Assembly: GCF_018128945.1 (NCBI RefSeq)
Contig: NZ_CP068393.1
Location: forward strand, 3,162,001 to 3,226,000
From: Aristaeella hokkaidonensis
GTDB taxonomy: Bacteria; Bacillota; Clostridia; Christensenellales; Aristaeellaceae
Length of the DNA: 64,000 bases
Reading direction: 5' to 3'
Shown: one piece after another, positions 23,071 through 41,378 of the stretch
Position numbering within the stretch: the first letter of the stretch is position 1
Layout of the letters: each line of letters opens with the position of its first letter
Translations under genes and position numbers: made by a program
Notes under the pieces: model-generated
The model's database searches: none
Seen by the model: the letters and a program-made list of their open reading frames with translations, nothing else
What the model was told of the DNA's origin: nothing

Positions 23071-25167
23071 TCAGAGATTAAGGGTTTTCCGGTATCCGTC
23101 CAGTTCCGGTTCATTGCCGTAGACATAATGGCCGGGAAGGATCTCACACCAGACGGGCGGATCATTCTCGTAATGATGGACGGAAGGATCATAAACCAGC
23201 AGCTTTTTGGTGCGTTCCACATAGGGGTTGGGGTTGGGAACGGCAGAAAGCAGAGCCTGCGTATAAGGATGCAGGGGATGAGCGAAGAGATCTTCCGCTT
23301 CCGCAAGCTCCACAATACGTCCTTTGTGGATAACGGCAATACGGTCTGAGATAAAGCGGACGACGCTCAGGTCGTGGGCGATGAACAGATAGGTCAGGCC
23401 GCGGCTCTTTTTCAGATCATTCAGCAGATTCAGCACCTGGGCACGGATGGATACATCCAGTGCGGAGATCGGTTCATCAGCTACGATGAACTGGGGCTCC
23501 ATGATCAGGGAACGGGCAATGCCGATACGCTGCCGCTGGCCGCCGGAGAATTCGTGGGGGAAGCGGCTGGAGAATTCGGGCAGAAGACCGACTTCGTTCA
23601 GCGCTTTCTGGACTTTATCCTGCCGGTCATGCTCGTCCTTGTACAGGTGATAGTTAATCAGACCTTCGGAAATGATGTAGTCCACCTTGGCCCGCTCATT
23701 CAGGGAGGCCATGGGATCCTGGAAAATCATCTGCATGGAGCGGATGACTTTTTCATCCATTTCTTTGCTGATCTTTCCGCTGATCCGCTCACCACGGAAG
23801 AGGACTTCACCGTTTGTAACGGGGTTAATCCGGACGATGGCCCGGCCGATGGTGGTTTTGCCGCTGCCGGATTCACCGACCAGGGAGAAGGTTTCTCCCT
23901 TATAGATCTCAAAGTTGACATGATCAACGGCCACGAACTTTTTGCGTCCGGAACCGAAGGTCACCTGGAGATCCTTAACCTCCACCAGGGTTTCGCGGTT
24001 CGGATCCAGGTGCGGATGATACGCATTCGGATCTGTGCCGTTGTTATCCTTGGTCTCGGAAAGACGCTGGATGGACTGGGGCTGCTCCACTTTGGGCGCC
24101 CGGGGATCCTGCAGCCAGGATTTGACCATATGGGTGGCTGTCACCTCATACATGGGCGGCTCTTCCAGGAAGTCAATGTTCAGCGCCTTTTTGTTCCGCG
24201 GAGCGAAGGCATCGCCCTGGATCTTGTTGAACAGGTTGGGCGGCGTACCGTCAATTGCGGGAAGCTTTTCTCCCTTGACGCCCAGCTGGGGAAGCGCTGA
24301 AAGCAGCGCCCAGGTGTAGGGATGCAGGGGAGAGAAGAAGACGTCATTGGCCATGCCGATTTCAATGATCTGGCCGCCGTACATAACCGCGACCCGGTCC
24401 GCAACATTGGCCACCACACCCAGGTCATGGGTGATGTAAATGATGGTCATGTTCTGCTCTTTCTGCAGGCGGCGGATCAGGTCCAGAATCTGGGCCTGGA
24501 TGGTAACGTCCAGGGCGGTGGTGGGTTCATCGCAGATGAGGATCTGGGGACGGCAGGCTACGGCGATGGCGATGACCACGCGCTGGCGCATGCCGCCGGA
24601 AAACTCATGAGGATACTGACGGTAGCGGCGCTTCGGGTCCGGAATGCCGACAGCTTCCAGAATCCGGTAGACTTCTTCACGGGCCGCTTTGCCCTTCAGG
24701 CCCTGATGCAGCTCCACGCTTTCCTGAATCTGATAGCCGATGGTTTTCAGGGGATTCAGACTGGTCATCGGGTCCTGGGTGACCATGGCAATTTTCTTAC
24801 CGCGGATCTTCAGCCAGTCTTTTTCTGAATACTGAACCAGGTCTTCTCCATCGTACATGATGGAACCGTGGGTGATGGATCCGTTTTTGTCCAGCATACC
24901 CACGAAGCATTTGGTGAAAACGCTTTTGCCGGAACCGGACTCGCCCACGATGGCGAGGGTCTCGCCCTCATACAGGTCCAGGGAAGTCCGGCGGATTGCG
25001 GTCAGTTTATTGCCGCGCAGGGAGAAGGTGACTTCCACATCCCGTGCGGATAGGATTGGTTCCTGTGAAAGGATACGGCGGGCCTTTGCCTCAAAGTCCA
25101 CGCTCTTCATTTCTTCGATCCGGGCGCTCATGGCGGCGCTGATCTTTTCGCTTGTTCTTTCGCTCAT
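23071..25167 (-). CDS. OppD-OppF fusion, peptide ABC transporter ATPase
   Basis: A 698-residue protein with two complete ABC ATPase domains that are usually encoded separately. The OppD half has Walker A GESGSGKS (about 75-82), [28 protein letters not shown] and the oligopeptide C-terminal motif [14 protein letters not shown]. The OppF half has Walker A near 430, [28 protein letters not shown] and [16 protein letters not shown]. The ATG at 25167 follows GGGAGG at 8 bases; the GTG three codons earlier is inside that ribosome site. It energises the OppBC channel encoded upstream in the same operon. Compare the split OppD and OppF at 38293-41378. Confidence 0.95.
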
Positions 25168-25182
25168 ATTCAGCACCTCCCT

Positions 25183-27612: not shown

Positions 27613-29538
27613 TTACTCCGCGTTGTACGCGTCGGCAAAGGCAGCCATCTCTTCGGTGGTGTAAGGAGCAGAATTGGTTTCCCAATCCACGTAGCGATAA
27701 CCCTGCATGCCGTACATGCTGTACACCTTGGAGTAGTTGTTGACCTTGGTCAGTTCCCAGCCAACTTCGTAGCTACAGGGGATAACCAGGACATGATCCA
27801 GCATGCAGGCTTCAGCCTTCGCGAAAGCGGCATAGCGGGCATCCATATCGTCGGTGATCGCCTTGGCAGCGACGACCAGATCGGTGAATTCCTGATAAGC
27901 AGCGATCAGGTCGGGATCCTTGTTGTCGTTGCAGTTGCTGTAGGCATTGGAGTAGTAAGCCTGGGGATCAGCGTAGGTTTCCTGGCCCAGGAAGTTGACC
28001 GGGTCGGCGAAGTCAGCGCCCCAGCCGTTGATGTAGATGGAAGCCTTGCGGGGTTTCCGGACTTCATTGGCCAGAGAGGAGATATAGGTGTTGACCTTCA
28101 GGGTGACGAAGTCATCGCCCAGGCAGGTGGAGAAGATGTTCTTCAGAACCTCAGCGGTTTGAGCGGCAACGTCGCTGCTGCCGGAGATGAAGTAATCCAC
28201 AGTGACGGGGAAGGTGACGCCCTTGGCGGTCAGCTCTTCCATGGCCTTGGCTTTGTATTCAGCGGCCTTTTCAGCATCCACGCGGACATACTTCTCATAG
28301 TCGTAATCCATACCCAGTTCCTTGCGGACCAGCGCGGTATAGTCAGTGCCGTCAGAGGTGAAGGCCACGCCGTTGCCGGTGTAGCAGAGGTTCTGACAGG
28401 ACAGGGGATTGATCGCGTTGGTGCGGGCAAAGTAGTTGGTCAGGTCCAGTCCGTAATACCAGGCCTTACGGAAGTTTTCATTGGCAACAGCGGTGTTCCA
28501 GTTGTCGTCCGGAGTTTCGCCGTCTTCCAGGTTCTTGGCATAGACCAGGTGGATCTGGTAGGAATACTTGGTGGGACGGGATTCAACCAGGTTGGCCTTG
28601 TATTCGGCATCGGCAGTTCCATCGTAGATGCCCTGCAGTGTGGCCTGGTCCAGGGAAACATGATCCAGTTCGCCCTGCTTGAACAGCTGGTAGGCGGTAG
28701 CAACGGATTCAACCATCTTGATGGTGACGGTGTCGAACCGCTTGCAGTTGGCGTCGTTCCAGTAGTTGGGGCTCTTGGTGAGCACCTTCTGGTTCAGGTT
28801 TTCGAAGTAGGTGACGGTGTAGGCACCGGAATACCACATGTTTTCCCAGGTGATGTCACGGTAGCCGTCCACGCCGATTTCCTCGATCAGATCAGCAGAC
28901 AGAGGATACAGGCAGTTGTAGGTGGCAACGGAGGGGAAGTAGGGCAGCGCATCCACCAGCGTGAAGGTGATGGTACCGGCTTCGTCGTCACACTTGATAC
29001 CGACCATCTCGGCGAACTTGGAGCCTTCGTCAGCGGTCAGGGCTTTGACTTCTTCCGCGTTGGCGTTGTCTTCACCGGTCAGTTCCTTGGTGTACTCATA
29101 GTACTCGTTGGCACCGGCGATCATTTCGGCGGGCATGGAGACGTTGTAGGAGTCGTTCTTCGCGTAGTTCAGAACCCACTCCAGACCGGTGGCCCAGTCG
29201 GAAGCCTTCACATCGGCCTGTACTTCGCCGTCCTTGGTGAACCAGGTCATGCCTTCATTCAGGGTGAAGATCCAGGTCTTGCCGCCGTCGGGAGACTCAT
29301 AGGACTTCGCGGCGTTCAGCTTCAGGTTGCCGTGGTTGTCGTTGGTCAGCAGACCGTCGATCAGGTTACACAGGACGTTCAGGTCAGCAGCAGCCTGGGA
29401 ATAATGGATATTCCAGGTTTCGAGCTCACGGCCCTGAGTTTCATAGGTGTTCAGAGTGGTCAGTTCGTCGGCTGACGCAAAGGAGCAGATACCGAGCAGC
29501 ATTACAGCTGCCAGAACGAGGGACAGAAATTTCTTCAT
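27613..29538 (-). CDS. oppA: Peptide-binding protein OppA, conventional order
   Basis: A 641-residue family 5 solute-binding protein. The start is the ATG at 29538, giving a signal peptide ending CSFASA|DEL; the cysteine there does not make a good lipobox. The usual order is kept: N-terminal LNTYETQ...DGLLTNDNHG, the mid-domain PYFPSVATYNCLYPLS and SPNYWND, and the C-terminal segment DARYAAFAKAEACMLDH-VLVIP...GWELTKV (about 567-600). It captures peptides outside the membrane for OppBC. It is first in its operon, with a good promoter, and is followed by two hairpins. It serves as the reference for the permuted homologue at 33438. Confidence 0.94.
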   Translation of the reverse strand: MKKFLSLVLAAVMLLGICSFASADELTTLNTYETQGRELETWNIHYSQAAADLNVLCNLIDGLLTNDNHGNLKLNAAKSYESPDGGKTWIFTLNEGMTWFTKDGEVQADVKASDWATGLEWVLNYAKNDSYNVSMPAEMIAGANEYYEYTKELTGEDNANAEEVKALTADEGSKFAEMVGIKCDDEAGTITFTLVDALPYFPSVATYNCLYPLSADLIEEIGVDGYRDITWENMWYSGAYTVTYFENLNQKVLTKSPNYWNDANCKRFDTVTIKMVESVATAYQLFKQGELDHVSLDQATLQGIYDGTADAEYKANLVESRPTKYSYQIHLVYAKNLEDGETPDDNWNTAVANENFRKAWYYGLDLTNYFARTNAINPLSCQNLCYTGNGVAFTSDGTDYTALVRKELGMDYDYEKYVRVDAEKAAEYKAKAMEELTAKGVTFPVTVDYFISGSSDVAAQTAEVLKNIFSTCLGDDFVTLKVNTYISSLANEVRKPRKASIYINGWGADFADPVNFLGQETYADPQAYYSNAYSNCNDNKDPDLIAAYQEFTDLVVAAKAITDDMDARYAAFAKAEACMLDHVLVIPCSYEVGWELTKVNNYSKVYSMYGMQGYRYVDWETNSAPYTTEEMAAFADAYNAE

Positions 29539-29601
29539 CTGTGCATGGTCCTTTCTTCTTATATACTTTTTGCCAAAGGCGCTCTCCTTTGAGTGTGATT
29601 T

Positions 29602-29631
29602 ATCATACCAAAGAACGGTGTCCGGTATCAA
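29602..29631 (-). promoter_or_regulatory. Promoter of the first opp operon
   Basis: Minus strand TTGATA (29626-29631), an 18-bp spacer, TATGAT (29602-29607), about 64 bases before the oppA ATG. Confidence 0.75.
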
Positions 29632-30174: not shown

Positions 30175-30199
30175 AATGACTGACAAGCTGTCAGTCATT
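30175..30199 (+). terminator. Intrinsic terminator overlapping the tldE 3' end
   Basis: AATGACTGACA-AGC-TGTCAGTCATT followed by TTC. The stem includes the last bases of the convergent tldE gene. Confidence 0.75.
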
Positions 30200-31483
30200 T
30201 TCTATTCCCGTAACTGTGACGCCCTGCAGGCGGGTTACGGAAGGAATCAGCATGGTGTTATACTGCCGGGATTCCTTCGAGAAACGCATGGTCTTTGACA
30301 ATTCGGGGAAGCTGCCGGAGACAGAACCGCCGCAGACGGGAGTAACCTTACCGCCCTGATGCAGATAGGCCAGACGGATCTCGCCGGCGATGTCCCCGGT
30401 AATCAGGTCCACCTGGAAATCGGAGAATTCCACAACCTCCAGGAAATCACCGGTGCGCAGATCAGCTGCGGATTCGGTTCCGCCGTCCACAACAATATTG
30501 GAAGCGATGAAGGACGAATCCATCCCCAGGTATTGGGCAAACTGACGGCTTCCCATGTAGCTGACAGCTTTGCCGTGATCGATCAGGGTCAGGTCACGGA
30601 TCGGAGCGCCTTCCTCATCATACGCGAAGTTGCGGGAAGAGTTGGACAGGGAACGCACCGCACGCATGGTCATATTCTTCGGTGCGACCATATCCCCGAT
30701 TTTCCAGTCGGACATGCCACGGTACACCACGGACGTAAACAGCTTGGAGGCAAAGAATCGATAGAGTTCCACGGACGGATCGGTGGCAAAGACCACATCC
30801 ATCTTCTCCAATGCGGGAGTGGGGACAGTAACCAACCTGTCACGGCCATAGGTAAGGGCTTCAGTCAGATCCGCGGTCAGCTGCGCCCGGTCGCAGGTGC
30901 CAGATTTGAGCATCCGGTACAGCTCAATCTCATGTCCGTCTTTCCGTGCATTGACCACTGCTTCCACCATAGAGGAGGGATAGACGGAGGTTACATCGAT
31001 GCCGTTGCTGTTCAGGAAGCGGCGGCGGATCTCACTGACAAAGATTTCATAGCTGTTCAGATCTTCTGTTTCTGTTTCCGGAACCGAAGCCAGTGCTTTG
31101 ATAAAATCACCGCTGATGGATTCCAGATCAATCTTTTCCGCTTTTGTTTCTGTTTCAGCCGCACTGGGAGTATTCAGCGTATAGAAAGGATTGCGTACAT
31201 AAGAAGCATCACTGCACAGCCCGTTAACGATGCGGCGCATCTCTTCTTCCGAAGCGTCGGAAGGAATGGACGCTTCCGCCCGGCCAAGGCAGTCGTCAAA
31301 CTTTTTGTAGACGCTGACAGAGAAGGAACGGACATCCTTGACTCTGTGCTGGTCCAGGCTGTGACGGATAAAGTAAAACTCCCAGCCCTTTTCTTCCTCA
31401 TCAGTTACTTCCCAGGCATCTGCTCCTGAAGTTTTCAGTACATTCAGCAGCGTATCAAGCGCTGCGTTATTCATATCAGCCAT
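30191..31483 (-). CDS. TldE/PmbA family metallopeptidase subunit
   Basis: A 430-residue protein of the TldE/PmbA branch of the modulator-of-gyrase family, which forms a heterodimeric protease with TldD. It lacks the HExxxH motif and carries the family C-terminal region with SSRNFAYDEEGAPIRD and FSDFQVDLITGDIAGEIRLAY. The start is the ATG that overlaps the tldD stop (TAATG); a longer frame with an R/S-rich N-terminus is rejected. Known roles of the pair include microcin maturation and degradation of unfolded or modified peptides; no peptide substrate gene was seen nearby. Confidence 0.88.
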   Translation of the reverse strand: MADMNNAALDTLLNVLKTSGADAWEVTDEEEKGWEFYFIRHSLDQHRVKDVRSFSVSVYKKFDDCLGRAEASIPSDASEEEMRRIVNGLCSDASYVRNPFYTLNTPSAAETETKAEKIDLESISGDFIKALASVPETETEDLNSYEIFVSEIRRRFLNSNGIDVTSVYPSSMVEAVVNARKDGHEIELYRMLKSGTCDRAQLTADLTEALTYGRDRLVTVPTPALEKMDVVFATDPSVELYRFFASKLFTSVVYRGMSDWKIGDMVAPKNMTMRAVRSLSNSSRNFAYDEEGAPIRDLTLIDHGKAVSYMGSRQFAQYLGMDSSFIASNIVVDGGTESAADLRTGDFLEVVEFSDFQVDLITGDIAGEIRLAYLHQGGKVTPVCGGSVSGSFPELSKTMRFSKESRQYNTMLIPSVTRLQGVTVTGIEND

Positions 31484-32928
31484 TATCCCAGCCTCACTTT
31501 CGCTTTCAGATAGGGACCGCCGTCGGCAACCTTGACCCATTCCTTGTGGCCTTTGCCGCATGCGCCGGCGCCAAAGCTCTCCCGGTCTGTGGATACCATG
31601 GAGACGGATCCAAGCAGGTCCGGCACATAACCGGTCATGACCAGCGGAGAAACCACTTTACCGGTCAGCTTGCCGTTCTTGATTTCATAGCCACGGTCGA
31701 GGATGCACTGGATACCCCAGTGTTTGGGGTCTTCCATACCGGACTGCATGCCTTCAAGCAGATAACCGTTTTCAATGGAAGCAATCATCTCTTCCAGGGT
31801 GCTGGTGCCGGAATCGAACATGGTATTGGTCATACGGGTATAGGCCTTGTGGGAGAAATTCTCCCGTTTGCCATTGCCGGTGGGCTTGACGCCCAGCCGC
31901 AGGGCACTGAGGGCATCGCAGATTCCTCCGCGCAGGATGCCGCGGTCAATTTCCGTGACGTCACCGGCGGGAGTTCCCTCATCGTCAAAGGCATAAGAGG
32001 TAACATCCTCTGCGCACAGTGCACCTTCATGCATGGTGACCAGATCGGAACCGACCCGTTTGCCGATGTAGTCGGCACCCAGGGCGCGTCCCTTGACAAA
32101 CATATCCATCTCCACACCGTGGCCGAAGGCTTCATGAGCGATCAGGCCGGTTACTTCCGGTGCAGTGATGACGTCATATTCCCCGGGCACAACCCGCTCC
32201 GCGGAAATCAGGTCTTTCGCGATGCGCAGGACTTCAGGGATTTTATCTTCCATGTGATCGAACAGTTCCGGACCGCCCAGACCGGACAGGGAGGTATAAG
32301 CCATCTCCGTACGGTCTTCACCGGCAACCAGTGCGGCTGCCATTCCTTCGCTGAAGACGTAGGACTGGCGAAGATCCTGATGCTCGGTCAGGAACATCTT
32401 GCAGACATGCGTGGAGGAGGCGCGGACATGGAAATCGATCACATTCAGGCCTTTGGCCGCTCCGTCTTTCATCCCCTGATCGGAAACGGCAGACAGCTTA
32501 TCCACCAGGGCAGAAATGTTTTCTTCTTTCGGCAGGCGGCCGGTTTCCTTTTCTGCAAATACAGTACGGGCTTCATCCGGAAGGATACCGGTTTCATAAG
32601 CCTTGACACCGTTTGCGTTCAGCAGGCGCAGCTGGGCGTCAAGCTCCCGGGTGATGCTTTCGAAGGTTTCCTTTGCTTTGGCCGGATCAAAACCGGTGAA
32701 GGCTGATTCGGCATAGAGTCCGTTTTTGTATACACGAACCACTGTGCCGCGTTCCGTGGCGATCGTTTCATGGGATACGTTCCTGGAACGCTGGGAAATG
32801 GTGACAGAAAAGCCGTCGGAGTCTGTGGACAGTACGGATACGTAATCATACCGCCCGCGGAGCAGGGTGATCAGCTCCTTCAGTCCAGGAGCGATTCCGT
32901 TCAGATAAGAAGAAAAAGGTGCTTTCAT
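31483..32928 (-). CDS. tldD: TldD family metallopeptidase catalytic subunit
   Basis: A 481-residue TldD. HEAFGHGVEMD (near residue 263) is the metal-binding HExxxH motif of the active subunit, and the C-terminal DLLGSVSMVSTDRESFGAGACGKG region is typical. The ATG at 32928 follows GGAGA at 7 bases; an upstream in-frame ATG lies within the promoter region. It forms an operon with the overlapping tldE gene and has a strong promoter. The activity would be metal-dependent proteolysis inside the cytoplasm. Confidence 0.93.
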   Translation of the reverse strand: MKAPFSSYLNGIAPGLKELITLLRGRYDYVSVLSTDSDGFSVTISQRSRNVSHETIATERGTVVRVYKNGLYAESAFTGFDPAKAKETFESITRELDAQLRLLNANGVKAYETGILPDEARTVFAEKETGRLPKEENISALVDKLSAVSDQGMKDGAAKGLNVIDFHVRASSTHVCKMFLTEHQDLRQSYVFSEGMAAALVAGEDRTEMAYTSLSGLGGPELFDHMEDKIPEVLRIAKDLISAERVVPGEYDVITAPEVTGLIAHEAFGHGVEMDMFVKGRALGADYIGKRVGSDLVTMHEGALCAEDVTSYAFDDEGTPAGDVTEIDRGILRGGICDALSALRLGVKPTGNGKRENFSHKAYTRMTNTMFDSGTSTLEEMIASIENGYLLEGMQSGMEDPKHWGIQCILDRGYEIKNGKLTGKVVSPLVMTGYVPDLLGSVSMVSTDRESFGAGACGKGHKEWVKVADGGPYLKAKVRLG

Positions 32929-32964
32929 GAAGGTTCTCCTTTTCTCATATATTGCGACAAAAGC

Positions 32965-32993
32965 ATTGTACAAAGGGGGTACGTGGAAGTCAA
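32965..32993 (-). promoter_or_regulatory. Promoter of tldD-tldE
   Basis: Minus strand TTGACT (32988-32993), a 17-bp spacer, TACAAT (32965-32970). Confidence 0.8.
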
Positions 32994-33437: not shown

Positions 33438-35582
33438 ATGACCAAACTGGTAAAGGTTCTGTCTCTGGTTCTTGCGCTGACCATGCTGTGCGGCGTGGCT
33501 TTTGCTGAAGCCCCCCAGCTCGCAGCGGATGCGCAGCCGGAAGAAGTGGATGTTGAAGCTTATGAAGAAACATCCTCTGAAATCTACGAACTCGTGCTGA
33601 GCGAATACAAAGAGTATTATGAAAAAGCAAAGGAAGCTGACAATGTTTCCGAGCGTTATGCCCTGATGGCTATCGCCGAGGCGAAGCTGTTTGAAGCGGC
33701 TGTTATGATCCCCTTGGAGAGCCGCGGCGGCCAGTTCGCCATCACCCGTGTTGCTCCCCGTTCCACCTCTTCCACCCTGTGGGGCAATGATGAAGACCGC
33801 CTGCACCAGGCTGTTGTCGTTGAAGATGGCATCCTGAAGGGTGAAGAAGTGCAGGAACTTCGTAACCTGTGGAACGAAGTCCGCGGCACCGGCACCTATG
33901 AAGCCAAGGCCAAAGAGTACCTGGAAGGCAAAGGCTACAAGCTGACTGACGTGTACAACTATGCGTACACCAGCGATCCTTCCACCTGGGACGTGCTGAA
34001 CACCTCCAAGCAGGCTGATACCCGTGCCATCGTGAACACCTATGACGGCCTGTTCGAGTATGACAACGAGAATGTACATCAGCCCGCACTGGCCACCGAA
34101 ATGACCGTGAGCGAAGACGGCCTGAAGTACACCTTCAAAATCCGCGAGGGTGTTGAATGGGTTGACAGCCAGGGCCGTAAGGTCGCTGACGTGAAGGCTG
34201 ACGACTGGGTTGCCGGTATGCAGCACATGATGGACTGCGCTGAAGGCCTGGAATACCTGACCGGTGCAGCCGGCGCCAACATTGTGAACGCTGACGCTTA
34301 CATCGCCGGTGAGATTACCGACTTTGAACAGGTCGGCGTTAAGGCTCTGGATGATTACACCCTGGAGTACACCCTGGCGGCTCCCAGCTTCTTCTTCGAA
34401 ACCATGCTGAGCTACAGCGTGTTCGCTCCCATGAGCCGCGACTATTACACCTCCCAGGGCGGCCAGTTCGGCGAAGAGTTCAACAAGGAAGCCGAGACCT
34501 ACCTGTACGGCAAGGATCCGGATCATATCGCATACTGCGGTCCGTATCTCGTGACCAACGCCACCAAGGAAAACACCATCGTGTTCCAGGCCAACCCGAC
34601 CTACTGGAACAAGGACAACATCAATATCCATACCATCAACTGGTATTACAATGACGGCCAGGATGCCCTGAAGGCTTACAATGACTTCAAGGCCGGCATC
34701 CTGCGCAGCTGCGGCCTGACTGCTTCTTCCCTGGAGCAGGCCAAGGTTGATGGACTGTTCGATGACCACAACTTCATCTCCGCCACCGACGCTACTTCCT
34801 TCATGGGATTCTTCATGGTCAACCGTACCGCGTTCAAGAACTACAACGACGCTACCGTGGCTGTGTCCACCCAGACCGTTGAACAGGCTGCCCGCACCAA
34901 GGCCGCTATGCAGAATGCGAACTTCCGCCGCGCCCTGCTGATGAGCCTGGACCGTGGTTCCTACGAAGCCCAGACTGTTGGTGAAGAACTGAAGTACGCT
35001 TCCATGATCAACACCTTCACCCCCGGCAACTTCGTGTTTGTTCCGGAAGAAGTGACCGTTGACATCAACGGCGAAGCCAAGACCTTTGCTGCCGGTACCT
35101 ACTACGGCGAAATCATGCAGGCTCAGATCGACGCCGATGAGTTCCCCGCCAAGGTTTGGGATGCTGAGACCCAGCAGTCCTCCGGTTTCGACGGATGGTA
35201 CAGCCCCGAGAACGCCAAGGCCTTCCTGGACAAAGCGGTTGCTGAACTGGCTGAAGCCGGTGTTGTGATCGACGCTGAAAATCCGATTTACCTGGATCTG
35301 CCCGTATTCGCCACCAGCGAAATTTACGCCAACCGTGCGGAAGTGCTGAAGCAGTCTATTGAAAAGGTGACAGGCAAGTTTGTGATCGTGAACAGAGTTG
35401 ACTGCGACACCTCTACCGACTGGTACAATGCCGGCTACTATCCGGGCAACGGATATGAGCACAACTTCGACATCTATGACGTATCCGGCTGGGGTCCCGA
35501 CTACGGTGATCCTCAGACCTACCTTGACAACATGCTGCCCGATCATATGGGCTACATGATCAAGTGCCTGGGTATCTTCTAA
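33438..35582 (+). CDS. OppA-like binding protein with apparent circular permutation
   Basis: A 714-residue family 5 peptide-binding protein. After a signal peptide (about 1-23, ending AFA) comes a segment, about 47-130, with SERYALMAIAEAKLFEAAVM-IPL...GGQFAITRV, which matches the C-terminal segment of the conventional OppA at 27613. A linker with GTGTYEAKAKEYLEGKGYKL (about 149-168) leads into the normal N-terminal start, YNYAYTSDPSTWDVLNTS...YDGLFEYD (about 173-210). The protein ends at GWGPDYGDPQTYLDNMLPD...LGIF, exactly where the C-terminal segment would normally begin. Binding of oligopeptides is inferred from the family and operon. GAAAGGA precedes the ATG. Confidence 0.92.
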   Translation: MTKLVKVLSLVLALTMLCGVAFAEAPQLAADAQPEEVDVEAYEETSSEIYELVLSEYKEYYEKAKEADNVSERYALMAIAEAKLFEAAVMIPLESRGGQFAITRVAPRSTSSTLWGNDEDRLHQAVVVEDGILKGEEVQELRNLWNEVRGTGTYEAKAKEYLEGKGYKLTDVYNYAYTSDPSTWDVLNTSKQADTRAIVNTYDGLFEYDNENVHQPALATEMTVSEDGLKYTFKIREGVEWVDSQGRKVADVKADDWVAGMQHMMDCAEGLEYLTGAAGANIVNADAYIAGEITDFEQVGVKALDDYTLEYTLAAPSFFFETMLSYSVFAPMSRDYYTSQGGQFGEEFNKEAETYLYGKDPDHIAYCGPYLVTNATKENTIVFQANPTYWNKDNINIHTINWYYNDGQDALKAYNDFKAGILRSCGLTASSLEQAKVDGLFDDHNFISATDATSFMGFFMVNRTAFKNYNDATVAVSTQTVEQAARTKAAMQNANFRRALLMSLDRGSYEAQTVGEELKYASMINTFTPGNFVFVPEEVTVDINGEAKTFAAGTYYGEIMQAQIDADEFPAKVWDAETQQSSGFDGWYSPENAKAFLDKAVAELAEAGVVIDAENPIYLDLPVFATSEIYANRAEVLKQSIEKVTGKFVIVNRVDCDTSTDWYNAGYYPGNGYEHNFDIYDVSGWGPDYGDPQTYLDNMLPDHMGYMIKCLGIF

Positions 35583-37294: not shown

Positions 37295-38284
37295 GTGAGT
37301 GAATTGAAGAATACACAGATGACTGATCTGTCTGAATTTAATATGTCTGACGGAGAATTGTTCTCCCACGTGGATCATTCCGCTCTGGAATCGGAAAAAA
37401 TCACCGCTCCGCGCTATTCTTACTGGAGGAGTGTGTTCCGGGTGTTTTTCCGGAAAAGGATCAATGTTGTGATCCTGACGTTGTTTGCCATCATCCTGGC
37501 GTTCACTTACATTTATCCTGCAATCAATCATTATGATCCATACGCCAACATACTGGAAGGATGGACAAAACACCTGACGCCTTCTGTAGCTATGGAGGCA
37601 CTGGGACATAACATTCACTATATTCTTGGTACCGGAGCTTCCGGCCAATCCACTTTTGACGCGGTATGGTACGGCAGCCGGATTTCTGTTTCCATGGCTT
37701 TCCTTTGCGCGGCAATCAACCTGACACTTGGTGTTGTGATTGGCGCCATCTGGGGATTCTCCAAGAAAGTGGATATGGTTATGACCGAGGTGTATAACAT
37801 CATCGGCAATGTCCCGTATCTGCTGTTCATCGCCGTATTGGTGCTGATCTTTTCCGCCGGTTTCTGGACCATGGTTTTTGCGCTGACAATTACAGGATGG
37901 CTGGGCATTGCCTATTTCATCCGGACCCAGGTGATTATCATCCGGGATCGAGAGTATAACCTGGCGTCCCGCTGCCTGGGCACCCCGATTACCCGGATTG
38001 CCATGAAGAACATCCTGCCCTTTATGACTTCCGTGATCGTGACGCTTGCAGCCACAGAAATTCCTTCCTATATTTCCTACGAAGTGTTCCTGTCCTACAT
38101 TGGTATGGGTATGTCGGATATGTCCCTGGGCAGACTGATCTACTCCGCGGAAAATGCGATGCTGACCCCCGGATGGCAGTTTGAATTCTGGTCTCCGGTT
38201 GTTGTTGCGTCCATTATTACCATTGTGTTGTATGTGGTGGGTCAGAACCTGGGCGATGCTTCCGATCCCCGGACTCATATGTGA
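37295..38284 (+). CDS. OppC-type peptide permease
   Basis: A 329-residue OppC/DppC permease. The GTG at 37295 is the start, preceded by GAGGTGA. A cytoplasmic tail of about 60 residues and helices near 62-85 and beyond lead to the conserved RDREYNLASRCLGTPITRIAMK loop and the C-terminal DPRTHM. Its stop overlaps the upstream end of the next gene's translation start region. The size is ordinary, unlike its operon partners. Confidence 0.94.
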   Translation: MSELKNTQMTDLSEFNMSDGELFSHVDHSALESEKITAPRYSYWRSVFRVFFRKRINVVILTLFAIILAFTYIYPAINHYDPYANILEGWTKHLTPSVAMEALGHNIHYILGTGASGQSTFDAVWYGSRISVSMAFLCAAINLTLGVVIGAIWGFSKKVDMVMTEVYNIIGNVPYLLFIAVLVLIFSAGFWTMVFALTITGWLGIAYFIRTQVIIIRDREYNLASRCLGTPITRIAMKNILPFMTSVIVTLAATEIPSYISYEVFLSYIGMGMSDMSLGRLIYSAENAMLTPGWQFEFWSPVVVASIITIVLYVVGQNLGDASDPRTHM

Positions 38285-38292
38285 GGTGCCTT

Positions 38293-40041
38293 ATGGAACA
38301 GAAAAAAGTATTGCTCAGCATCAAGGATCTGGTTGTTAAATTCCGGGTCCGGGGCAGAATCCTGACCGCTATCCGGAATATCAACCTGGATATCTACGAA
38401 AATGAATCCATTGCCATTGTGGGTGAATCCGGATCCGGAAAATCCGTTTTCACAAAGACCTTTGCCGGTATGCTGGATTCCAACGGTTTTATTGACCAGG
38501 GAAGCATCATCTATGATGACAGCGAACTGGCGGATACTACAGTTTCTTACAATAAGCGTACCCGGAGAGGCATTGCGTTTATTGAAAAGAAACTGAATGA
38601 AGCCAGCAAGCTGGAGGCAGGGGCGGAGACCTGGCAGGAGATCCAGGCACTGGAGGCGGAGAAAAAAGCCCGGGCTACGCTTTCTGAAGAAGAAATGCAG
38701 GCAATGGAAGATGAGATCAAGGAGATTGCCTTCCAGCGGACTGAACTGTTCAACCTGAAACAGACGTATGATCCCCGCAAGGAAAAGGAACTGATCCGGA
38801 AGGCTGACAAGCGGCTCAAAGAGATGGATCAGCAGATCGAGAATCTCAAGAAGACGCAGAAAGAGCGGATTGCAAAGAAAAAGCAGGATGCCGCTACAGA
38901 CCAGGCCTTCCTGGTACAGGTTCAGGAAAAGAAAGACGAGCTGAATGCCCGCTATAAACAGGAAATCGCGGGAGGCATTACCCGGGAGACAGAAGAGCGC
39001 AACGCAATCCTGGCAAAAGAAATTGAGCTTTCTGTCGGACGGTACGGTGCACTGAAACGCCGCAGGAATGAGCGGGAACTGGTAAAAGCCCTGACTGAGG
39101 CCATGCGGGAAGGTAAAAACCTGGATGACGAGGAAGTGCGCAATGCTGTTTTTGATCCGGTGACTTTCCGTGTTCGTTACCTGGACGAAACAGAGAACCG
39201 TCTGCACGGAACCTGTGTGCTGAACCTGGCGAAAGTCAAGGATGCAACGGACTGGACGAAAATCCGCGGAACACGGATTGCTACCGTATTCCAGGATCCT
39301 ATGACCAGCCTGAATCCGATCATTACTATCGGCAAACAGATTATGTCCATTATCATCAAGCACCAGAAGTGTTCTGAGGTGGAAGCACGCCGCCGCGCAC
39401 TGGAGCTGATGTACAAAGTGGGTATTCCGAACCCTGAAAAGCGTTTTGATGATTATCCCTTCCAGTATTCCGGCGGTATGCGTCAGCGCATTGTTATCGC
39501 CATTGCCCTGAGCTGCCAGCCCAAGGTTCTGATCTGCGATGAACCGACCACTGCACTGGATGTGACGATCCAGGCCCAGATCCTGAAGCTGCTGAAAGAC
39601 CTGCAGAAGGAATTCAACTATACGATTGTATTCATTACCCATGACCTTGGTGTGGTTGCCAATATCGCGGACCGGGTTGCGGTTATGTATGCGGGACAGA
39701 TCGTGGAATACGGAGAAGTGGAAGAGGTCTTCTACGATCCGCGCCATCCCTATACCTGGGCGCTGCTGTCCTCCCTGCCTCAGCTGGCGGAGCGGAACAC
39801 GGAACTGTTCTCCATTACCGGTACACCGCCGTCCCTGTATAACAAGATTGTCGGTGATCCGTTTGCTCCCCGCAACAACTATTGCATGAAGATTGATACA
39901 CTGAAGGAGCCGCCGATGTTCCAGGTGAGCGAGACCCATTACGCCAAGACCTGGCTGCTGGATCCCCGGGCACCGAAAGTGGAAAAACCAAAGATTATTG
40001 AGAATATCCACGAAAAACTGGTGGAAGCGTATCATCTTTGA
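38293..40041 (+). CDS. OppD-type ATPase with coiled-coil insertion
   Basis: A 582-residue ATPase where about 330-350 is normal. Walker A GESGSGKS is at 46-51 or so, but the Q-loop [10 protein letters not shown] is only at about 333-341. The roughly 235 residues between them (about 82-318) are rich in K, E, R and Q with heptad-like stretches such as [20 protein letters not shown], so they should form a coiled coil. After this the protein is normal: [18 protein letters not shown], and [17 protein letters not shown]. In the OppDF fusion at 23071 the same gap is only a few residues. The ATG at 38293 follows GAGGTG. Confidence 0.92.
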
Positions 40042-40085: not shown

Positions 40086-41378
40086 ATGACACAGAAATTG
40101 ATCAACAGAGCAAGTGAACTGCCGGCACGCGGCCCGCTGAATGAAGAGGGAAGGGAAATCCTTCTTTCCCTGAAGAACGTGGATATCACCTTCGGTAAAG
40201 GTGATAACGCGGTGAAGGCGGTAAAGAATGCCTCCTTTGATATTTACAAGGGAGAGACTTTCTCGCTGGTGGGCGAATCCGGTTCCGGCAAGACCACAAT
40301 CGGCCGTGCCGTGATCCGCGTTAACCCCTGCGCGGCCGGTGAGATTGATTATAAGGGCGTCCGGATTTCCGGCAAGATTTCCAAGGCACTGGACCGGGAG
40401 GTCATCCGGAATATCCAGATGGTCTTCCAGGATCCCGCAGCGTGCCTGAACGAACGGGCTACGGTGGACTATATCATTTCCGAAGGCCTGTACAACTTCC
40501 ATTTGTTCGAAAATGAAGCTGACCGGGTGAAAAAGGTCGAAACCATGATTGAGGAAGTCGGCCTGCTTCCGGAACACCTGACCCGGTACCCGCATGAGTT
40601 CTCCGGCGGACAGCGCCAGCGTATCGGCCTGGCCCGTGCCATGATCATGGAACCGGAACTGGTTATCGCAGACGAGCCGATTTCCGCCCTGGACGTTTCG
40701 ATCCGTGCACAGGTGCTGAACCTGATGAAGAAATTCCAGAAAGAGCGGGAAATAACTTACCTGTTCATTGCGCATGACCTGTCTATTGTCCGCTTTATCT
40801 CTGACCGGATCGCTGTTATCTACAAGGGAGACATTGTGGAAATCGCGGATACAGAGGAGCTGTTTGACTACCCCCTGCATCCGTACACCCGGTCCCTGAT
40901 TTCCGCCATTCCGATTCCGGATCCGAAGCTGGAAAAGCACAAGGCTCTGTTCACCTACGATCCTTCCGTGCATGATTACAGCACGGACAAACCGCAGATG
41001 ACGGATATCGGCCATAACCATTTTGTATACGGCAACAGCAAGGAAATTGAAGAATACAAGGCACAGCGCGAAGCAGGCGTACCGCTGAAGTCCATCACGA
41101 TCCTGGACGAAGGAGAAGAAGCACCGTCTTCTGTGAATGATAATGCCGTAGTGGACGAAGACTTCCTGCAGACGCCGATCCATGATACGGGAAGCATCTG
41201 GCTGGCTGTACTCTGCTTCTTCCTGGCACCGCTGGGAATTATCGCGACACTGATGTTCAAGAAGCGGCGCCATTTCCGCAACTATAAGATGTGCAGAACA
41301 GGCACGATAGCAGGATTCTGTGTGCTGGGAGCGATTATACTACTGTTCCTGATTTTCCTGCTGATGTCAGTTCTGTAA
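40086..41378 (+). CDS. OppF-type ATPase with C-terminal membrane helices
   Basis: A 430-residue ATPase with a complete OppF domain: [36 protein letters not shown] and [16 protein letters not shown]. The last 64 residues add two strong hydrophobic helices (about 371-391 and 407-429) separated by [13 protein letters not shown]. OppF proteins are normally peripheral and lack such helices. The sequence is one open frame without a frameshift, so this is a genuine fusion. It pairs with the upstream OppD. The membrane tail would anchor the ATPase or contact the permease. Confidence 0.92.

Follow-up and report, generated by a model that had tools for sequence, protein, structure and literature searches.

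Most circular permutants that have been studied were engineered, and natural ones that became established across a lineage are considered uncommon. Within the large SBP_bac_5 family of substrate-binding proteins (family 5), to which OppA of Bacillus subtilis (PDB 8are) belongs, the pneumococcal proteins AmiA, AliB, AliC and AliD have been solved (PDB 8a42, 8qlj, 8qlh and 8qlc; PMC11192437). W504 and D507 of AmiA bind the peptide's amino end, its opposite end contacting G590, and in AliD lobe 1 comprises residues 29-296 and 583-617 and lobe 2 residues 297-582 (PMC11192437). For a different class, a natural circular permutation of an ATP-binding cassette (ABC) importer's binding protein was described in Tp0684 (TpMglB-2, 'Cluster Bc') of Treponema pallidum and also reported in Gram-positive relatives, and the authors suggested a link to anchoring (PMC4990184). 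Here we analyse a 714-residue protein encoded in a 64,000-nucleotide stretch of the Aristaeella hokkaidonensis genome (the window; NCBI RefSeq assembly GCF_018128945.1, contig NZ_CP068393.1, positions 3,162,001 to 3,226,000), which is very probably an AmiA-type family-5 peptide-binding protein that has undergone natural circular permutation and most likely serves the AmiCDEF-like permease encoded downstream of it.

The window protein is like AmiA and the Ali proteins in its core fold, in the Trp/Asp pair for the peptide amine, in its terminal helix (by alignment) and in an operon that also encodes two permeases and two ATPases; it is unlike them in that its order is rotated, with the last ~115 residues placed first and the chain ending at the equivalent of AmiA 533. 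Tp0684 is a cluster B sugar-binding protein with its start strands near the chain end, whereas the window protein is a member of family 5 and carries the former C-terminal segment at its N-terminus; former N-terminal strands near the C-terminus, as in Cluster Bc, were not found in it. Among the matches listed in two structure searches (50 rows each), titles read as family-5-type, and a family's absence from them proves nothing. The first-pass annotation had known of no description of such a protein. A literature search of an open-access subset likewise found none of a permuted family-5 protein among the matches listed, but natural permutation had been published for Tp0684.

Rotated order of the chain

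At the start of the chain stands a segment that is C-terminal elsewhere; a short conserved joint connects it to the usual N-terminus, and the chain terminates at the point where the moved segment would be expected to start. Domain annotation misses this rotation, because the Pfam match to PF00496 (143.6 bits; curated cut-off 32.4) covers residues 215-700 only. When solved structures were searched with phmmer, which assumes no permutation, AmiA was matched in two swapped blocks (query residues 171-699 to chain residues 14-497, 256 bits; 46-154 to 516-627, 17.7 bits, independent E-value 0.0084), and AliB was matched likewise (171-709 to 7-497; 53-151 to 514-612, 18.6 bits, independent E-value 0.0043). 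When a profile of residues 44-156 built from relatives was compared with one of 28 conventional proteins, it aligned to the C-terminal segment of the latter with an E-value of 1.2e-15 (probability 98.6, 97 columns), the second-best place having an E-value of 0.0064. Compared as single sequences, the segment and the conventional OppA encoded in the neighbouring operon showed a weak but correctly placed match (BLASTP E-value 1e-4, 49 residues). On the 672-residue open reading frame (ORF) of that OppA, the segment profile scored 32.5 bits at residues 578-670, compared to a best score of 8.6 bits in 1000 shuffles of the same protein, and the other two stretches reported there scored below zero. 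No other Pfam family exceeded its cut-off on the relocated segment, so that a match to a different family, which the first-pass annotation had given as refuting, did not occur.

These results bear out most of the first-pass annotation, which had read the protein as an OppA with its full fold content present in rotated order; the swapped blocks, the profile-profile match and the high-confidence model described below all support that reading. Its match between an N-terminal segment and the C-terminus of the neighbouring OppA is real and correctly placed, but its numbering was offset: the motif SERYALM begins at residue 71 and not at ~49, and DARYAAF of the OppA lies at residue 597 of the ORF, or 566 from the likely start. 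The usual N-terminus does follow from about residue 173 (the AmiA block starts at query residue 171), the chain does end in GWGPDYGDPQTYLD...LGIF, and the profile search that had been proposed as a check leads from the segment to the C-terminal segment of conventional relatives.

Predicted fold

An AlphaFold model of the window protein (predicted local distance difference test, pLDDT, 94.1; predicted template modelling score, pTM, 0.90) has the two-lobed, three-domain fold of AmiA and OppA. Residues 169-714 overlay AmiA 33-533 at 1.7 Å over 492 residues, and the overlay covers the chain to its last residue, ending at AmiA 533. Because the alignment stops there, the rest of the protein is no complete AmiA; a lobe pair complete without the segment, the outcome that the first-pass annotation had named as telling against permutation, did not occur. 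The ends of the two blocks meet within a few residues on AmiA, at 533 in the overlay and at ~537 as placed by hand from the alignment. Modelled alone, the relocated segment reached a pTM of 0.58, which is not a confident compact domain, and in this isolated form it had no significant match in a structural search. The permuted chain would be expected to fold into the usual two-lobed clamp.

Spread and operon context

We collected 118 ORFs with a core hit from a species-genome scan (68 loci, relatives of either order), genus mates and a class search. In 76 of these, including the window's own, the segment precedes the core; it follows the core in 29 (28 distinct) and stands between two core blocks in one (type II, below). 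It was not found in 12, and in none of the 118 does it lie on both sides. Because the segment precedes the core in the window protein and at 75 other loci, we file the protein as a permuted variant (type I) rather than as an ordinary member of family 5, whose usual N-to-C order it does not have.

The 75 further type I proteins are 34-74% identical to the window protein. Their carriers, where named, are mostly Lachnospiraceae or other Clostridia, including gut and rumen Clostridia, and some are titled as strains (Roseburia hominis An869, Lachnospiraceae bacterium A4 and Acutalibacter sp. 1XD8-33), which argues against an assembly error. Counted by full-length matches rather than by block tests in each genome, type I occurs in 12 of 37 genomes of the genus (one of which holds it on two overlapping pieces of contig), 5 of 391 genomes of the class and 2 of 398 of the phylum. 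The chain ends in a common motif, G-[ILVM]-[YFWL], in 70 of the 76 type I ORFs; two of the other six end differently (L055 and L064, the latter with masked letters), and in four (L056, L061, L080 and L081) the end is off the motif by about one residue. In an alignment of 65 rows (the window protein and 64 of 70 loci with an assigned start), no residue lies past the final column in 64 rows. Residues of the joint are conserved (G150 in 63 rows, G152 in 59, Y154 in 59, G166 in 64 and Y167 in 62).

A B-type permease gene lies 3' of the permuted gene at 68 of the 72 loci for which 1 kb or more of downstream sequence is available, the misses being L027, L062, L066 and L076; L076 has the gene, and its open frame overlaps. 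The full order of substrate-binding protein (SBP) and permease genes, SBP-B-C-D-F, is found at 49 of the 50 loci whose downstream sequence extends for 7 kb or more, the exception being L062, a second copy without these genes in an assembly that also holds a complete operon (L025). In the window, B-C-D-F follow directly downstream, giving the two permeases and two ATPases of the AmiA/Ali systems.

Two of these loci have further features. The assembly with L062 and L025 (CALZGM01) thus encodes two type I proteins, one with no permease genes in 8 kb downstream, a pairing reminiscent of the pneumococcal Ami/Ali arrangement. In L066:4614-7649, ~300 extra residues with a BspA-type leucine-rich repeat (PF13306) stand between the lipobox and the permuted part; no B permease was matched in the 2 kb of contig left downstream of this gene.

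Peptide site and likely function

Equivalences to the ligand residues of AmiA were assigned by hand from the phmmer alignment. W685 and D688, which correspond to AmiA W504 and D507, are present in 65 of 65 rows, as expected of AmiA and the Ali proteins, and G97, which lies within the moved segment and corresponds to AmiA G590, is present in 64 of 65. By this correspondence, the amino end of an oligopeptide would be bound by the invariant Trp/Asp pair, and the moved segment may contribute part of the usual pocket wall through G97. Most likely, the permuted protein functions in peptide binding for its own permease. Against this view, the position of AmiA N56 is not conserved (A in 34, Q in 15 and S in 12 of 65 rows) and the position of AmiA S54 is Y in 14 of 65 rows. 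In addition, no lipobox was recognised in any of the 11 type I rows from the window's genus, so that the argument on anchoring below does not bear directly on those proteins.

A second permutation in family 5

We also found a second permuted group of family-5 proteins with another cut point (type II), first seen as two class-search hits that fit neither order (L117:829-2538 and L118:1267-2901, minus strand). Full-length members are present as 12 proteins in 12 genomes (L117, L118, L121, L123 and L166-L173), spread over three genera of the class (g63, g132 and g148) and three further families of the phylum (f152, f195 and f214). Residues 205-544 of L118 match residues 44-404 of the conventional protein L126 with 46% identity and residues 40-196 match 405-559 with 45% identity; since these blocks abut on L126, nothing is missing between them. 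Against B. subtilis OppA, residues 209-558 of L121 match 17-364 and residues 51-191 match 367-508. A B-type permease, ~28-31% identical to that of the window, follows the type II gene at 12 of 12 loci. Of the 391 genomes of the class, 4 have type II, as do 10 of the 398 of the phylum, the ten including that of L174 (G809:C1:903826-905391). L174 is a thirteenth relative, and ahead of its A block it has one in-frame TGA, which may mark a pseudogene, an error or recoding.

In a quick tree of 71 rows made without bootstrap (INDEPENDENCE), thinned from 137 rows at 68% identity, type I forms one clade within the AmiA-like side (support 100 in the Shimodaira-Hasegawa-like approximate likelihood ratio test, SH-aLRT), and type II lies across a branch with SH-aLRT 100 from it. 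A single clade of both types was rejected (p value of the approximately unbiased test, p-AU, 0.0004) in a set of 50 rows, from which 21 further rows had been dropped, namely two long conventional branches and 19 type I rows including L066. Type II itself requires two changes in the 71-row tree; in the 50-row tree it forms a single branch (support 25). An ancestral permuted order is unlikely, since the usual order is kept by conventional rows on either side of the tree, with the C-terminal block after the core in 30 of 30 conventional rows of the 71-row tree. The sequences thus indicate that types I and II, both members of family 5, arose separately on different branches and with different cuts, which makes at least two natural permutations in the family.

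Position of the cuts and membrane anchoring

The type I cut falls at AliD 526, the last residue in the overlay, and therefore in lobe 2, since this residue lies within 297-582. The type II cut, ~90-100 residues earlier by hand mapping, is at ~AmiA 430 or roughly AliD 425, also in lobe 2. Both cuts thus lie in domain III (lobe 2) as mapped by hand, and the N-terminus would therefore exit from lobe 2 instead of lobe 1. Whether secreted or lipid-anchored, the N-terminus of a permuted protein would leave from that lobe, and lipidated members would be held at the membrane by the opposite lobe from usual, mostly through a longer tether.

With a loose scan pattern, a lipobox was recognised in 57 of 75 type I, 34 of 42 conventional and 4 of 11 type II rows. 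None was recognised in the window protein or in 17 other type I rows, as distinct from AmiA and the Ali proteins. Because the 11 type I rows of the genus all lack a recognised lipobox, the anchor argument covers only part of the permuted proteins. The median distance from the tether cysteine to the first folded element is 39 residues in type I, 15.5 in conventional and 29 in type II proteins; the difference between type I and conventional tethers (Mann-Whitney p 4e-10, without L066) comes from a statistic that ignores kinship and a conventional set that mixes subfamilies.

By eye, ordinary signal peptides are present in the window protein and in L073-L076, L078-L084, L090, L095 and L097-L100, in which no lipobox was recognised, and in L085-L088 a cysteine stands at a lipobox-like position, with an ordinary-looking cleavage site after it. 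Genes for LspA and the Lgt family are present in the window's genome. One Lgt per genome is usually expected; this genome (G000:C1) has seven Lgt-family (PF01790) matches, all above the cut-off, with the best far ahead.

Alternative explanations

An N-terminal segment that is an unrelated domain resembling the end of OppA, in a protein that had simply lost its C-terminal segment, would account for the low single-sequence similarity (17.7 bits with phmmer; BLASTP E-value 1e-4) and for the isolated segment's lack of a significant structural match. The segment nonetheless finds its place in the conventional profile far ahead of any second place, scores well above all shuffles on the neighbouring OppA and has no other Pfam family over its cut-off, and the block ends meet on AmiA; we regard this explanation as very improbable. 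An artefact of assembly or sequencing is scarcely credible: many carriers are metagenome-assembled genomes by title, but the order recurs at 76 loci including the window's, some in titled isolates, the gene is a single long open frame preceded by a start signal, 70 of the 76 share an end motif, and the joint is conserved. The permutation likely originated by duplication and trimming, as the first-pass annotation had supposed, in which tandem copies would have fused and redundant ends been lost; an intermediate carrying the segment at each end was sought among the 118 ORFs with a core hit and not found.

Given that the protein is a natural permutant, its consequences are less certain. We see about an even chance that the permutation is neutral, a rare accident that the fold tolerates and that leaves docking and anchoring unaffected. 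Other genomes of the genus hold conventional AmiA-like proteins beside a B permease (L084-L088), carriers are a minority of species by the genome counts above, and no lipobox was recognised in 18 of 75 rows of type I or in 7 of 11 of type II; two separate events that both placed the new ends in domain III speak against neutrality, as do the longer tethers of lipidated type I proteins, with the reservations on mapping and kinship already given. Conversely, an anchor on lobe 2 might change the hold, leaving lobe 1 free for movement or for reaching the B subunit's extracellular domain, a possibility that we lean against. It would fit the new end in lobe 2, the longer tethers, an AlphaFold model of the pneumococcal system in which ECD2 of AmiC contacts lobe 1 only (PMC11192437) and the anchoring role that its authors proposed for the permutation of Tp0684 (PMC4990184). 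The same lipobox counts (none recognised in any of the 11 genus type I rows, nor in 7 of 11 of type II), the mixed conventional tether set and the loose lipobox pattern tell against it. That at least two family-5 permutations, both cut in lobe 2, were selected because a shift of the N-terminus from lobe 1 to lobe 2 alters the hold over the permease seems to us rather doubtful.

Gene neighbourhood

The permuted gene is the first of a five-gene set for a binding protein, two permeases and two ATPases (Table 1), and an AAGGA motif, read by eye, lies 10 nucleotides 5' of its ATG. In the neighbouring divergent operon, OppD- and OppF-type ATPases are fused in one 701-residue protein with two ABC_tran stretches (23071-25176, minus strand), and a PmbA/TldD-type metallopeptidase gene pair (30191-32973, minus strand) lies between the two peptide-transport operons. 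A Pfam search found eight SBP_bac_5 places in the window's genome, including the permuted and conventional proteins of the window; in a block test of the other six, three have the usual order (L158, L159 and L160) and three gave no order call (L161, L163 and L164).

Table 1. Coordinates of the permuted gene, its parts and neighbouring transport genes in the window.
Feature	Coordinates	Strand	Basis or remark
Circularly permuted AmiA/OppA-type (SBP_bac_5) peptide-binding protein, 714 amino acids (very probable)	33438..35582	+	Pfam, structure alignment, AlphaFold model
Signal peptide, residues 1-23	33438..33506	+	Cleavage site placed by eye
Relocated segment, residues 39-150	33552..33887	+	Homologous to conventional C-terminal part, AmiA author residues ~537-648 (numbering converted by hand)
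New joint TGTYEAKAKEYLEGKGYKLT, residues 151-170	33888..33947	+	Connects old C-terminus to old N-terminus; conserved
Part of the ORF after the new joint	33948..35579	+	AmiA alignment, overlay, 65-row alignment
OppB/AmiC-type permease, 523 amino acids	35717..37288	+	
OppC/AmiD-type permease	37295..38284	+	
OppD/AmiE-type ATPase	38281..40041	+	
OppF/AmiF-type ATPase	40086..41378	+	
Conventional OppA of the neighbouring divergent operon, comparison protein	27613..29631	-	Likely start internal, at MKKFLSL

Significance

The permutation sits in a large and well-studied transporter family, and the position of the new N-terminus may matter functionally. A functional consequence of moving it might concern docking and transport, for which natural permuted and conventional relatives within one genus provide a test set of the position of the N-terminus and anchor.
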